DNA of 53,769 nt from Oscillospiraceae bacterium (GTDB lineage Bacteria > Bacillota > Clostridia > Oscillospirales > Oscillospiraceae): positions 1-53,769 of the forward strand of contig SVLH01000008.1 in NCBI GenBank assembly GCA_015068025.1, in the 5' to 3' direction. The position numbers were made by a program, and so were the translations under genes. Positions 45,193-53,769 of the stretch are shown in pieces (within the stretch, counting starts at the first letter, position 1; each line of letters begins with the position of its first letter). The notes under the pieces were generated by a model. That model saw nothing but the letters and a program-made list of their open reading frames with translations. It was not told the DNA's origin and searched no databases.

Positions 45193-46428
45193 GTGACACA
45201 GAAAGACAGATATGTGAAACTGGGTTTTGCGGTGTTCTGCACTGTGGGCGCCATTTTGCTGTTTTATGATACGCTGTTTGGCGGCAAGGCGCTTTTGCGC
45301 TTTGGCGGGGAACTGCTCTCTGCGGTGGAGCCTATTCTCTACGGCGCATTCATGGCATATCTGCTGGCACCGGTGGTTAACTTCTTTGAAAAGCGCCTGT
45401 TCAGCACCGCAAAAAAGAAGCCCCGTCGCCAGTGGCGCAAGGTGTCCTGGGGCGTGCGCGCCCTGAGCATCCTTCTGACCTGGGCTGTCATTGGCGTATT
45501 GCTGTTTCTGCTGGGCTATGTGCTGCTGCCTGAACTGTATAAGAGCATCACCCAGCTCATCGCCAATGTGGAGGCCTATTACACCACCGTCAGCCGCTGG
45601 CTCCACAACCTGTTTGAGACCTATCCCCAGCTGGAGGAGTGGGCGGTGACCCGGCTGGACAGCTACTTTGCCTCCATGACCGCCAACGTCCAGAACCAGC
45701 TGCTGGAGTGGGCAACCTCTCTGATGTCTCTTGTTTCCGGCGGTGTGTTCGGCGTGATCGGCTTTTTCGGCGACCTGCTGGTAGGCGTGATCGTGTCGGT
45801 TTACTTCCTGGCTACGAAGGAGGGCGTCGCCGCCCATGCCCGCAAGGTGGTCTGCAGCCTGTTTTCCAGGGAAAAGGGGTACTGGATCTTCCGCGGTTCC
45901 CGTAAGGTGGACAGCATCTTCTCCGGCTTTGTCCGCGGCAAACTGCTGGACTCCCTGATTATCGGTATTCTGTGCTTTATCGGCTGTTCGATTCTGCGCT
46001 TCCCCTACACACCGCTGGTGTCCGTCATCGTGGGCGTGACCAATGTGATCCCCTTCTTCGGCCCCTTCCTGGGTGCCATCCCCAGTATTTTCCTCATTCT
46101 TCTGGTGTCGCCTTTGCGGGCGGTGTATTTTGCCATCTTCATTCTGGGCCTGCAGCAGCTGGACGGCAATGTGATCGGCCCCGCCATCCTGGGCGAAAAG
46201 ACAGGCCTCCCCAGCCTGTGGGTCATTCTGGCCATTCTGGTGGGCGGACATTTCTTCGGATTTGTCGGCATGTTCTTCGGCGTGCCGGTGTGTGCCTGCC
46301 TCTACAATGCCGCGACCTTCTATGTGGAGTGGCGGCTGAAGAAGAAAAATATGCCCTCCGATACCGCGAGCTATACAGCGCGCCCCTCTGTGGCCGAGGA
46401 GAAGCCGGCAGAGGAGGAAGCGCCGTAA
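45193..46428 (+). CDS. AI-2E family membrane protein (TqsA/PerM-like)
   Basis: This 411-residue protein starts at a GTG after GGAGGGAGA. It has about seven to eight membrane segments in the pattern of the AI-2 exporter superfamily: two N-terminal helices, a long amphipathic stretch (about 115-170), then GVIGFFGDLLVGVIVSVYFL, LLDSLIIGILCFIGCSILRF, NVIPFFGPFLGAIPSIFLIL and QLDGNVIGPAILGEKTGL, the family hallmark. The last 30 residues are polar and acidic. Substrates in this family are diverse (autoinducer-2, ions), so none is assigned. It is probably monocistronic. Confidence 0.93.
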   Translation: MTQKDRYVKLGFAVFCTVGAILLFYDTLFGGKALLRFGGELLSAVEPILYGAFMAYLLAPVVNFFEKRLFSTAKKKPRRQWRKVSWGVRALSILLTWAVIGVLLFLLGYVLLPELYKSITQLIANVEAYYTTVSRWLHNLFETYPQLEEWAVTRLDSYFASMTANVQNQLLEWATSLMSLVSGGVFGVIGFFGDLLVGVIVSVYFLATKEGVAAHARKVVCSLFSREKGYWIFRGSRKVDSIFSGFVRGKLLDSLIIGILCFIGCSILRFPYTPLVSVIVGVTNVIPFFGPFLGAIPSIFLILLVSPLRAVYFAIFILGLQQLDGNVIGPAILGEKTGLPSLWVILAILVGGHFFGFVGMFFGVPVCACLYNAATFYVEWRLKKKNMPSDTASYTARPSVAEEKPAEEEAP

Positions 46429-46443
46429 AAACGGCGGCAGCCC

Positions 46444-46472
46444 TTGCATTTTCTGCGTTTTTGATGTAGAAT
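46444..46472 (+). promoter_or_regulatory. promoter-like sequence just before a hairpin
   Basis: TTGCAT (46444-46449), a 17-nt spacer and TAGAAT (46467-46472) lie downstream of the AI-2E gene. Transcription from it would begin inside the adjoining terminator hairpin, so its use is doubtful, but it is the best promoter-like site before the ABC operon. Confidence 0.4.
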
Positions 46473-46473
46473 G

Positions 46474-46514
46474 AAACCCTGTGGGAAACGAAATGGTCTC
46501 CCACAGGGTTTTTT
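46474..46514 (+). terminator. terminator of the AI-2E gene
   Basis: The 13-bp stem AAACCCTGTGGGA (46474-46486) with TCCCACAGGGTTT (46499-46511) has a 12-nt loop and six T. Confidence 0.88.
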
Positions 46515-46605
46515 ATAAAAAGTAAATAGGCCAAAAATCAAAGCCGGGCGGACGGCCCGCCCGACACCGACCCTTCCGGGCGGTGATGAAAAGGAGTAAC
46601 CGACG

Positions 46606-48138
46606 ATGAAAAAACGACTTTTGGCATTCCTTCTTGCGGGACTGATGATCGCTGCGCTGACCGGCTGCGGAGGCGACGGCACGGAGCAGTCCGGCGGAGA
46701 GGAAACCAAGCGCGCCCAGGCGAACGAGATCGCCGTGGGCATTGCACAGGATCTTGACGATAGTCTTGACCATCACAAAGCGGTGGCGGCAGGAACCAAG
46801 GAAGTCATGTTCAACGTATTTGAAGGCTTGATGAAGCCCACCTCTACGGGTGATCTGATCCCTGCGGTCGCCGACCACTATACGATTTCCGAGGACAAGC
46901 TGACCTACACCTTTACCCTGCGCCAGGGTGTGAAGTTCCATAACGGAGATGCGGTGACGGCAGAGGATGTGAAATATTCCATCCAGCGCGTTGCCGCCCC
47001 TACCGAAGCAGGTGTTGTTCCGGTGGAGGCGCTTTCTATTATCGAGGGCATTGAAATTCCGGATGCGGAAACCGTCGTCATTAAGCTGACGGAGCCCAGC
47101 AACGAGTTCCTCTCCTACATGACCGTTGCCATCGAGCCTGCCGGCTATACCCAGCAGGACACCGCCCCCGTGGGCACCGGCCCGTTCAAATTTGTATCCC
47201 GTACGGCGCAGGAATCCATTGTACTGGAACGGTTTGACGAGTACTGGGGCACCCCCGCCTATCTGAATCGCGTGACCTATAAGATCATCGAAAACGCCGA
47301 GGGTCTGCTGATGGGTCTGCAAAGCGGCGCGCTGGACATCGTGTCCCACCTGAGCACCACCCAGGTCGCCCAGCTGGGCAGCGAGTTCCATATCGAGGAA
47401 GGCGCCATGAATCTGGTGCAGGCCCTCTACCTCAACCACGCCGAAAAGCCCTTTGACGACGTCCGCGTCCGTCAGGCGCTGTGCTACGCCATCGACCGTC
47501 AGGAGATTCTGGACATCGCCTTCGACGGCTACGGCAGCATCATCAATTCCAGCATGTACCCCGCCTTCGGCAAGTACTTCGTGGAGGAGATGAACGACTA
47601 CTACACGGTGGACATCGCAAAGGCCAAGGCGCTGCTGGCCGATGCCGGCTATCCCGACGGCTTTTCTATGACCATCACCGTGCCCTCCAACTATAAGCCT
47701 CACATCGACACGGCGGAGGTCATTGTCGAGCAGCTCAAGGACATTGATGTGACGGCGGAGATCAAGTTGGTGGAGTGGGAGAGCTGGAAGGCGGATACTT
47801 ACGCCGGCCGCAAGTTCCAGTCCACCGTGGTGGGCTTCGATGCCAGCACCATGACAGCCCGCGCCCTGCTGGAGCGCTGGACCTCCGATTACGGCAAGAA
47901 CATGATCAACTACAACGACTCCGCGTATGATGCGCTGTTCGAACAGGCACAGACCTGCTACGACGACGCCGAGCAGACGGAGATCTACAAGGAGATGCAG
48001 AAGAACCTCACCGTCAACGCCGCCAATGTCTACATTCAGGACCTGGCGGATCTGGTGGCGGTGCGCAGCAATCTGGAGGGTTTGCAGTTCTATCCCATCT
48101 ATGTGCTGGATCTTTCCGCCGTTCGCTACGCCAAATAA
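46606..48138 (+). CDS. oligopeptide-type ABC transporter, substrate-binding lipoprotein
   Basis: This 510-residue family 5 solute-binding protein (DppA/OppA/NikA type) has a lipoprotein signal with lipobox LTGC (Cys23). Family features are NVFEGLMKPTSTGDLIPAVA, TYTFTLRQGVKFHNGDAVTA, GTGPFKFVSR and DVRVRQALCYAIDRQEI. It captures the substrate outside the cell for the permeases and ATPases that follow. The ligand is not evident: dipeptide, oligopeptide and nickel-chelate proteins share this fold. The start ATG follows AAAGGAG. It is first in a five-gene ABC operon. Confidence 0.95.
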   Translation: MKKRLLAFLLAGLMIAALTGCGGDGTEQSGGEETKRAQANEIAVGIAQDLDDSLDHHKAVAAGTKEVMFNVFEGLMKPTSTGDLIPAVADHYTISEDKLTYTFTLRQGVKFHNGDAVTAEDVKYSIQRVAAPTEAGVVPVEALSIIEGIEIPDAETVVIKLTEPSNEFLSYMTVAIEPAGYTQQDTAPVGTGPFKFVSRTAQESIVLERFDEYWGTPAYLNRVTYKIIENAEGLLMGLQSGALDIVSHLSTTQVAQLGSEFHIEEGAMNLVQALYLNHAEKPFDDVRVRQALCYAIDRQEILDIAFDGYGSIINSSMYPAFGKYFVEEMNDYYTVDIAKAKALLADAGYPDGFSMTITVPSNYKPHIDTAEVIVEQLKDIDVTAEIKLVEWESWKADTYAGRKFQSTVVGFDASTMTARALLERWTSDYGKNMINYNDSAYDALFEQAQTCYDDAEQTEIYKEMQKNLTVNAANVYIQDLADLVAVRSNLEGLQFYPIYVLDLSAVRYAK

Positions 48139-51471: not shown

Positions 51472-52581
51472 ATGAAAGCATTGTTACAGAAATACAAAAA
51501 ACTGCATGTCTGGCTGCTGGCGAACCTGTTGCTGCTGGCGGCATGGTTCCTGTTTCGCGGGCAGAAGACGTGGATGACCGCACTGGCGGAAAACATCACC
51601 AACCCACTGCGGCAGGCTGTCGGCCGCCTTTGCTACCTGACGGAGGTTTCCGTCATGGAGGTGCTGTGCGTGCTGCTGGCGGTGGCTGCCGTGGTCTACA
51701 CGGCGTGGAGCATCGCGGCTGTCGTGCGGGCGAAGGGGTGCCGCAAGCGCTGCGCATACGGCGCGGCGCTGGGCGCGGTGAATGTCGCGCTGACCATCTG
51801 CGTGGGCTTCTGCCTGCTCTGGGGCATCAACTACTGGACGGAGAGCTTTCAGGACAAGTCCGGCATCCGTGCCGAGCCTGTGGCCTACGAGGATCTGGTG
51901 TCGGTGACCGCCTATTTCGCCCAGCAGCTTTCGCTGGCGGCGGATGATGTGCCCCGGGATGAAAACGGCGTGTTCGCCGTCCCGAGAGAGGAAATTCTCG
52001 CCGCTGCCCCCACTGTCTATGACGCGGCGGAGCAGGTGTTTCCCTTTTTGGAATTTGACGACCCCGGCGTGAAAGCCATGGCCTTCTCCCGCGTTATCAG
52101 CGCCATGGAGTTTACGGGGTTCTACTGCCCCTATACCGGCGAGTCCAATGTGAATGTGGACAGCCCTGCCTGTCTGCTGCCCTCCACGGTGGTCCATGAA
52201 CTGGCGCACCAGCGGGGCATCGCCTCGGAGCAGGAGTGCAACTTCCTCGCGGTCATGGCCTCCGTCATCAGTGGTGAGTCGGCCTACGAATACGCCGGCT
52301 GGCTGAAAGGCTATATCAATCTGGGCAACGCGCTGTATGCGGTGGACAGGGAGGCCTACTGGGCGATCCGTGACATGCTGCCTGAAACGGTGGCGGCCGA
52401 CCTTGCCTACAACAACGCCTACTGGGCGCAGTTCGCGGACACAGCGGTGCAGAAAGTGTCCAACACCGTTTACGACGGGATCCTGAAAGCCTATGGCGAT
52501 GAGCGGGGCGTCCAATCTTACGGCACGGTGGTGGACATGCTGGTGGTCTATTATCGGGACGCCGCCCTGGCCGGCGGCTGA
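51472..52581 (+). CDS. DUF3810 membrane protein with HExxH motif
   Basis: This 369-residue protein has three hydrophobic N-terminal segments (about 10-30, 60-85, 100-125) and a DUF3810 domain. The HELAH motif (about residues 243-247, in STVVHELAHQRGIASEQE) with the downstream Glu-rich helix suggests a zinc metallopeptidase, and NVNVDSPACLLPST precedes it as in the family. It starts 4 nt after the DppF-like stop with no clear ribosome site, so translation is probably coupled. Whether it processes peptides for the transporter is inference; the position is suggestive but the family is uncharacterised. Confidence 0.87.
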   Translation: MKALLQKYKKLHVWLLANLLLLAAWFLFRGQKTWMTALAENITNPLRQAVGRLCYLTEVSVMEVLCVLLAVAAVVYTAWSIAAVVRAKGCRKRCAYGAALGAVNVALTICVGFCLLWGINYWTESFQDKSGIRAEPVAYEDLVSVTAYFAQQLSLAADDVPRDENGVFAVPREEILAAAPTVYDAAEQVFPFLEFDDPGVKAMAFSRVISAMEFTGFYCPYTGESNVNVDSPACLLPSTVVHELAHQRGIASEQECNFLAVMASVISGESAYEYAGWLKGYINLGNALYAVDREAYWAIRDMLPETVAADLAYNNAYWAQFADTAVQKVSNTVYDGILKAYGDERGVQSYGTVVDMLVVYYRDAALAGG

Positions 52582-52962
52582 CCGCCGGGAAAAACGTCCC
52601 TCCGAAAGCCGCTGCACCGATGAAAGATATGGACAAAATGGCAGGGAGACTTCCTGAACGGATGCTGCGGATCGGACCCGGAAAGTGCAAATGATTTTCT
52701 TGGCGCCGGATCGCCGGACGGCGTGTCAAAGGCTCTTTTTTTGGCAAAAAACCTCCGCGCGCAAAGATTTTTCTGTAAAGCATTTGTAAATTTAGTGCTT
52801 TTTTGGGCGAAAAAACGGTAAAAATATCCTGCTGTGCAGATGCAGTTTTGTCAGGAAAACGACGGGTTCTGTGTGCTTATCCAAATCTTTTGGGGTTTTT
52901 TCGGACAGAAAGTTCATCTCTTCGCGCCGTAAAAAAATGGAGGTTGGATAAAAAAACGAATA
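52582..52962. other. intergenic region, A/T-rich, no gene seen
   Basis: Between the DUF3810 stop and the promoter at 52963 I see no coding frame with a ribosome site, no clear terminator and no RNA gene. The right part is A/T-rich with runs of A. Confidence 0.55.
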
Positions 52963-52991
52963 TTGCGCCAGAAATCCCCATCCAATATACT
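52963..52991 (+). promoter_or_regulatory. promoter of the structured leader and sugar transporter
   Basis: TTGCGC (52963-52968), a 17-nt spacer and TATACT (52986-52991) predict a transcript starting near 52998, about 290 nt before the permease ATG. Confidence 0.75.
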
Positions 52992-52997
52992 AGTACA

Positions 52998-53260
52998 TAT
53001 ACAATCCGGGCATTCTCTGCGCCGGAGGCGACGGCCTCTTTGCGGGAGTGTCGGGTACATTGGCGAAAAACTGCCCCGCCTGCGGACCGCAAACGGAGGA
53101 CCCCTCCGCGACCGAAAATGCAGGCGGCTTCATAGGACACGTGGTATGCGAACGGCTGCCGGCGTGTATCTATGAAGCGTAGGGAAGGACCTCGGCGGAC
53201 GCGAGCGAAGCCGGGAGACAAGACTCGCAAGGATCGGTTCGGTTGTTGGGCCGGTTCTGC
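52998..53260 (+). ncRNA. large structured leader RNA, possibly raiA motif
   Basis: The region after the promoter has several perfect stems: GAGGC/GCCTC (53025-53029 with 53034-53038), CGCCTGC/GCAGGCG (53077-53083 with 53120-53126) enclosing CGGAGG/CCTCCG (53094-53099 with 53103-53108), GCTTCATAG/CTATGAAGC (53127-53135 with 53170-53178) enclosing ACACG/CGTGT, and CTCGGC/GCCGGG (53191-53196 with 53210-53215). GCGAG/CTCGC (53201-53205 with 53224-53228) crosses the last stem, a likely pseudoknot. No terminator follows, so it is probably co-transcribed with the permease. Size, density and multi-stem layout recall the raiA-motif RNA of Firmicutes, from memory only. The exact ends are not known. Confidence 0.65.
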
Positions 53261-53288
53261 GAAGCAAAGTTTCGAAGGAGAGATAAGC

Positions 53289-53769
53289 ATGAAAACGGCG
53301 ACCAATGCGACATTAAGTGTCGAACCTCAGGCCAACGTTCCTCTGACTGCAAGTCAGCGGCGTTGGGTGAAGTTCCGCAGACAGCTGCCCTTCTATGTGA
53401 TGGCGGCGATCCCTGTGGTGTACTTCATTCTGTTCAAGTACTGGCCTATGTTCGGTGTGTCCATCGCATTCCAGAACTACAAGATCGGTGCTCCCTTTAT
53501 CAGCGCCGAGGCCAAGTGGGTCGGTTTGAGATGGTTCAAGCAACTGATCAACAGCCCCTTCTTCGGCCGTTGGGTCAGAAACACTCTGGCGATCAGTTTC
53601 TGGAACATCGCTCTGATCTTCCCCATGTCCATCCTCATGGCCCTGATGCTCAACGAGATCCGCAACAAGAAACTCAAAGGCTTCACCAGCAACCTGAGCC
53701 TGCTGCCCCACTTCATTTCCACCGTGGTTATCGTTGGCGTGGTCGTCAACTTCTTCTCCGTGGACGACG
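53289..53769 (+). CDS. sugar ABC transporter permease, LplB-like, truncated by window end
   Basis: The gene starts at an ATG 6 nt after GAAGGAGAG and runs off the window without a stop, giving 160 residues. After a soluble N-terminus of about 30 residues come the hydrophobic LPFYVMAAIPVVYFILFKYW and PMFGVSIAFQNYKI, typical of LplB/YtcP permeases, and WVRNTLAISFWNIALIFPMS. This group serves ABC importers of oligosaccharides or uronates, together with a YtcP-like second permease and a large lipoprotein, both presumably downstream. The sugar is unknown. Confidence 0.88.
   Translation, partial: MKTATNATLSVEPQANVPLTASQRRWVKFRRQLPFYVMAAIPVVYFILFKYWPMFGVSIAFQNYKIGAPFISAEAKWVGLRWFKQLINSPFFGRWVRNTLAISFWNIALIFPMSILMALMLNEIRNKKLKGFTSNLSLLPHFISTVVIVGVVVNFFSVDD

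Follow-up and report, generated by a model that had tools for sequence, protein, structure and literature searches.

A strand-specifically folded segment 5' of a CUT1 sugar permease gene in an Oscillospiraceae bacterium: a possible narrow operon leader, distinct from the raiA motif

Introduction

Translational riboswitches and structured 5' leaders precede transporter operons, and the 5' hairpins of bacterial leaders can stabilise mRNA. Riboswitch-like classes normally occur in many species. In an Oscillospiraceae bacterium, a densely paired segment lies directly before a gene encoding a CUT1 ABC permease, which we take to be of the LplB type. Is this segment a member of a known RNA family, a new regulatory RNA, or a chance accumulation of stems? 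A preliminary description proposed either a raiA-motif RNA or an undescribed regulatory leader of an LplB-type transporter. Here, we follow up both proposals, together with the alternatives that the locus raises.

Results

The segment lies between a weak promoter-like pair and a permease gene

The window, that is, the whole stretch of 53,769 nucleotides that was analysed, is an entire contig (C6) of a 1.54-Mb genome that is 71% complete (G000). The upstream neighbour of the folded segment is a DUF3810 gene (PF12725, 51472-52581), and downstream the contig ends within the permease gene. More of the operon is present in a congener (G014, contig SVKT01000029.1, "Oscillospiraceae bacterium isolate SIG468"), whose copy encodes two permeases and a solute-binding protein in succession (PF00528, PF00528, and PF01547), the last gene being cut by the contig end. 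The coordinates of all features are collected in Table 1.

Table 1. Features of the locus, with mean pair probabilities for helices where calculated.
Feature	Position	Strand	Description
Promoter-like pair	52963..52991	+	-35 TTGCGC (52963-52968), 17 bases, TATACT (52986-52991)
Folded leader	52998-53288	+	Between the promoter-like pair and the permease Shine-Dalgarno site
Hairpin P1	53009..53052	+	GGCATTC/GAGTGTC, CTGCG/TGCGG, GGAGGC/GCCTCT; 0.96, 0.86, 0.98
Hairpin P2	53077..53126	+	CGCCTGCG/TGCAGGCG around an inner CGGAGG/CCTCCG hairpin; each stem 0.99, the two intervening pairs 0.82; includes the 8-bp perfect stem
Hairpin P3	53127..53178	+	GCTTCATAGG/TCTATGAAGC and ACACGT/GCGTGT; 0.91-0.99
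Possible H-type pseudoknot	53191..53228	+	CTCGGC/GCCGGG with GCGAG (53201)/CTCGC (53224); not above chance
Hairpin P5	53215..53273	+	Base GAGAC/GTTTC, then TCGCA/TGCGA, then GGATCGGTTCG/TGGGCCGGTTC; 0.80, 0.85, 0.98 (leader folded alone)
Alternative hairpin	53269..53284	+	GTTTC/GAGAT (53280-53284), Shine-Dalgarno bases in the loop; excludes the P5 base
Shine-Dalgarno site	53275-53280	+	AAGGAG, 8 bases 5' of the permease ATG; good site, read from the sequence
CUT1 ABC permease	53289..53769	+	ATG at 53289; truncated by the contig end
Tract identical to G014 (SIG468)	52924..53509		586 bases, spanning the leader and coding DNA

A structured 5' leader is expected to lie between a promoter and the first gene of its operon, on the strand of that gene, and to be more stable than shuffled sequence; the position and fold of the segment agree with this, the promoter being only weakly supported. 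Of the promoter with 17-nt spacing that had been proposed, the TATACT hexamer and the 17-base spacer are present, but the -35 hexamer agrees with TTGACA at only 3 of 6 positions and a consensus promoter scan called no promoter at this pair. If the pair is used, transcription would start near 52998 and the leader would be transcribed.

No terminator-like site was found on the + strand of 52580-53420, both sites called there being on the - strand, so that the segment lacks the intrinsic terminator between leader and gene that a transcription attenuator requires. One of these - strand sites (53098-53074) falls inside the leader; two such sites in the region compare with 1.1 expected.

The claim that the segment lacks a protein frame largely holds: five frames from the leader region were compared with Pfam, and none matched at E up to 1. 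However, the entire leader is overlapped in antisense by a 142-codon ORF on the - strand (52877-53305), likewise with no Pfam match at that threshold, and the permease frame stays open back to an ATG at 53172. At the other end, the contig seems to start partway through a tRNA gene, of which positions 1-45 resemble the 3' portion (GGTTCAAGTCC...CCA); the Rfam scan made no call there.

Folding exceeds chance moderately and on one strand

The + strand of the leader has a minimum free energy of -128.2 kcal/mol. None of 200 shuffled sequences was as stable (z -3.86) and only 1 of 500 was (z -3.65); the z-score was -3.94 with 50 shuffles and -2.57 with just 25. The reverse complement is near chance (z -1.04, with 28 of 200 shuffles as stable; z -0.75 with 60 shuffles), so the excess of folding sits on the strand that would be transcribed. 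The perfect stems reported previously are indeed present, including the 9-bp stem GCTTCATAG (53127-53135)/CTATGAAGC (53170-53178) and an 8-bp stem CCGCCTGC (53076-53083)/GCAGGCGG (53120-53127), which have base 53127 in common. The leader contains 3 perfect stems of at least 7 bp, 2 of at least 8 bp, and 1 of at least 9 bp, numbers matched by 21, 8, and 14 of 300 shuffles, respectively. Taken in parts, segment 52998-53127 has a z-score of -3.37 and the hairpin 53127-53178 alone -6.09, and segment 53179-53288 folds only slightly better than its shuffles (z -1.3).

The segment might nevertheless have no specific RNA function: its stems could be products of chance or drift in a G+C-rich intergenic stretch that was carried along with a transferred operon. 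We regard this as a possible, though somewhat doubtful, explanation. The strand-specific z-scores of -3.6 to -3.9 speak against it, as does the adjacent intergenic stretch just upstream (52582-52923), which shows no such excess (z +0.43). On the other hand, when windows sampled across the contig were folded in the same way, 7 of 168 had z-scores below that of the leader (50 shuffles each; lowest -5.9), and at least 12 of 168 did so in a noisier scan with 25 shuffles. A stem density of this kind had been called rare; the leader does beat its own shuffles, but those 7 windows fold further below theirs. Six low-z windows were viewed by eye, of which five have terminator-like hairpins and one is coding-like. 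The two lowest-scoring windows, 46401-46691 and 1921-2211 (-5.6 and -5.9 with 50 shuffles), show, by eye, the features of intrinsic terminators, namely perfect hairpins with T runs after them. Taken together, the folding of the leader exceeds chance moderately and is strand-specific.

Three hairpins are robust in the energy model

In the energy model, P1, P2, and P3 are predicted as three robust hairpins and P5 as a less certain 3' hairpin. P3 directly abuts P2, and thus the two may stack on each other. With the leader folded alone, a weak closing helix joins the 5' end with 53277-53285 at a probability of 0.38-0.64. The base of P5 is formed by GTTTC (53269-53273) and GAGAC (53215-53219). Once the first 62 bases of the gene join the fold, GTTTC instead pairs with GAGAT, at pair probabilities of 0.74-0.81.

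The crossing GCGAG/CTCGC pairing, taken previously to form a pseudoknot, exists in the sequence but is not significant. Of 300 shuffles, 260 contain one or more H-type pseudoknots of this size, and 104 have as many as the leader's four, or more. This pairing was rejected as evidence of structure, and its chance-level occurrence is in line with a segment devoid of RNA function.

The segment matches no known RNA family

In Rfam 15, no family exceeded its gathering score in the leader region, and the whole window gave two tRNAs only. The preliminary description had itself counted such an outcome against its proposal. A comparison of the + strand of 52580-53420 with 4227 families gave no match at E up to 10; the sole match listed for this region is STnc410, which lies on the - strand outside the leader (12.2 bits, E 7.1).

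The raiA motif, suggested by the length and stem count of the segment, was assessed with the RF03072 covariance model (209 positions, gathering score 101.3 bits). The model had no match at E up to 10 in the region and none in the bacterium's own genome, which is 71% complete. As a positive control, 8 of 60 class genomes scored above the cut-off, at 119-186 bits; we relied on these 60 genomes, the 14 built-in control genomes having given no raiA match. With the control working, raiA identity was rejected. As far as the Rfam models can tell, membership of this or any other known Rfam family is refuted, and we give it hardly any credence. In the genus, 2 of 86 genomes matched the raiA model at E up to 0.001 and none exceeded 101.3 bits. 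These two matches, in congeners (L110 and L111), score 24.8 and 23.5 bits over 141 bases aligned to model positions 1-209 and are either diverged or due to chance.

The raiA RNA, named ModT in Clostridioides difficile, is likewise structured, of comparable length, and present in this bacterial class. ModT is described as acting in trans (PMC11706538), whereas the leader directly precedes a gene. A literature search combining lplB and riboswitch found no paper.

The leader is restricted to two genomes

To search genomes for the leader, a covariance model of 276 positions (R1) was built from two identical input sequences, effectively one. Full-length matches were found in 2 of 86 genus genomes (G000 and G014) and in 1 of 400 family, 1 of 394 order, and 1 of 398 phylum genomes, each time the own genome; these samples overlap, and batches of more than 40 genomes are filtered more strictly, at the cost of some weak matches. 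Counting weaker matches, the tallies were 4 of 86 in the genus at E up to 1, 2 of 400 in the family at 0.1, 1 of 394 in the order at 0.02, and 1 of 398 in the phylum at 0.01. Three side hits (L107, L108, and L109) score 15-22 bits and are centred on hairpin P2. All are within stop-free frames of at least 321 codons, L107 being antisense inside a 565-codon ORF that presumably encodes a carbon-starvation (CstA-type) protein. These short hits were taken as chance matches.

In DNA searches, an E-value cut-off of 1 gave matches in 81 of 86 genus genomes, but beyond G000 and G014 none was better than E 0.004 (over 23 bases). In the family, 264 of 300 genomes had matches under this cut-off; the strongest besides the own genome, of 32 bases (E 3e-4), sits inside a 632-codon stop-free frame. 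Conservation beyond close strains, the lack of which the preliminary description counted against its proposal, was absent within the genomes searched, the only other carrier being one other species of the genus. That the homologue search found just one identical copy also fits a segment without RNA function. Since only one distinct leader sequence is known, no pair is backed by covariation.

The narrow distribution bears on two further explanations. The first is an undescribed ligand-binding riboswitch or protein-bound attenuator that senses the transported sugar or its product. Its position before a transporter operon, its high structure, and the alternative pairing at the Shine-Dalgarno site would suit such an element. 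However, full-length matches are confined to the two genomes, the terminator needed for transcriptional attenuation is missing, and a conserved unpaired core cannot be shown, which makes this reading improbable. The second is a small RNA gene independent of the operon, or a structured mobile element that was inserted 5' of it, as the compact hairpins and the lack of a homologue nearby might suggest. We consider this unlikely as well: there is no terminator on the + strand, the leader has one strong match each in its own genome and in G014 (both incomplete), no leader match was found in phages and plasmids at E 1e-5, and a 23-base piece of it had no exact match among viral contigs.

The leader appears to travel with the operon

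The leader lies within the tract that is identical between G000 and G014. Alignment of the two genomes on the 5' side of this tract (10,472 columns) gives 86.7% identity (87.7% if the tract is counted). The 260 bases that remain on its 3' side differ at 5 positions, and four of these mismatches are silent. Because the identity is common to coding and non-coding DNA and stops sharply, we read it as a recently shared or recombined tract and not as constraint on an RNA; it was rejected as a sign of such constraint. The boundary suggests a recent exchange of the front part of the operon, and may alternatively be an assembly join.

The DUF3810 gene, matched in 73 of 86 genus genomes, provides a reference point for the site in other congeners. 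Sixteen neighbourhoods were returned, of which two are those of G000 and G014, and the remaining 14 were examined. In none of the 14 was a permease (E 1e-3), or a leader match exceeding 21 bases, located closer than about 1.5 kb to the DUF3810 gene. Together with the identical tract in G014, this points to a leader that travels with the operon.

The nearest relatives of the permease (G038, 61%; L075, 60%) do without the leader and have coding-like sequence close upstream, as would be the case for a leader without function. A 396-codon frame ends 106 bases 5' of the permease match in L075; the contig of G038 starts 230 bases 5' of the match, and this stretch is, by eye, a gene end followed by a Shine-Dalgarno site. 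Of 41 other permease loci listed, 40 were scored for folding (L093 was too short), in upstream windows that run up to where the protein match begins; this point is not in every case the ATG, so the windows include some coding DNA. One of them, L074, is G014's own leader (z -3.18, 60 shuffles). Among the remaining 39, three had z-scores of -3.0 or lower (L077, L078, and L087); by eye, their folds start with T-rich hairpins resembling terminators of the gene upstream. Scanning 13 permease loci against Rfam yielded a single hit, part of a group II intron (RF02005, 65.9 bits) at 4387-4498 of L087, a Lachnospiraceae contig, downstream of the related permease.

Discussion

The leader is an orphan structured leader; it is not a raiA RNA, and it is not a demonstrated new RNA class. 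Our preferred reading, to which we assign a probability of roughly 45%, is a narrowly distributed 5' untranslated leader of a CUT1 sugar-transporter operon that was acquired or exchanged with the operon and acts in cis. It lies directly 5' of the permease Shine-Dalgarno site and ATG, on the same strand. The lower z-scores of 7 of 168 contig windows, the weak promoter, and the leaderless nearest permease relatives count against this reading. The proposal of an undescribed leader of an LplB-type transporter therefore survives in part: position, a strand-specific fold, and a compatible Shine-Dalgarno site agree with it, but it rests on one distinct sequence.

As a cis-acting operon leader, the segment would probably affect translation or mRNA stability. 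The hairpins on the 5' side would protect the long transcript, and the 3' part would tune translation through the choice of GTTTC between two partners. Pairing with GAGAC would close P5 and leave the ribosome-binding site free, whereas pairing with GAGAT would hold it in a small hairpin. Both pairings appear in the predictions, the former without coding sequence in the fold and the latter with it. This choice could set translation, a hypothesis built on energy models of one sequence. Against such a switch, folding is least significant in the 3' part of the leader, and a 5-bp alternative pairing of GTTTC easily arises by chance. Going one step further, the leader might be an undescribed translational switch of very narrow distribution. 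Its signal would be a product of glycan breakdown imported by the CUT1 transporter, and GTTTC would move between its partners to free or hide the ribosome-binding site. We view this version as a long shot.

The leader resembles translational riboswitches and structured transporter leaders in its 5' position, its high structure, and the possible masking of the Shine-Dalgarno site, but it differs from them in having no known aptamer family and no conservation or covariation seen. It shares with mRNA-stabilising 5' hairpins a strong hairpin near the putative transcript start and would need no ligand for such a role, although its three successive hairpins exceed what that role needs.

Many stems in a single G+C-rich leader are not enough to make a new RNA class. 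If functional, this leader would be a structured element regulating carbohydrate uptake that comparative pipelines would miss, owing to the near absence of homologues among the genomes searched.
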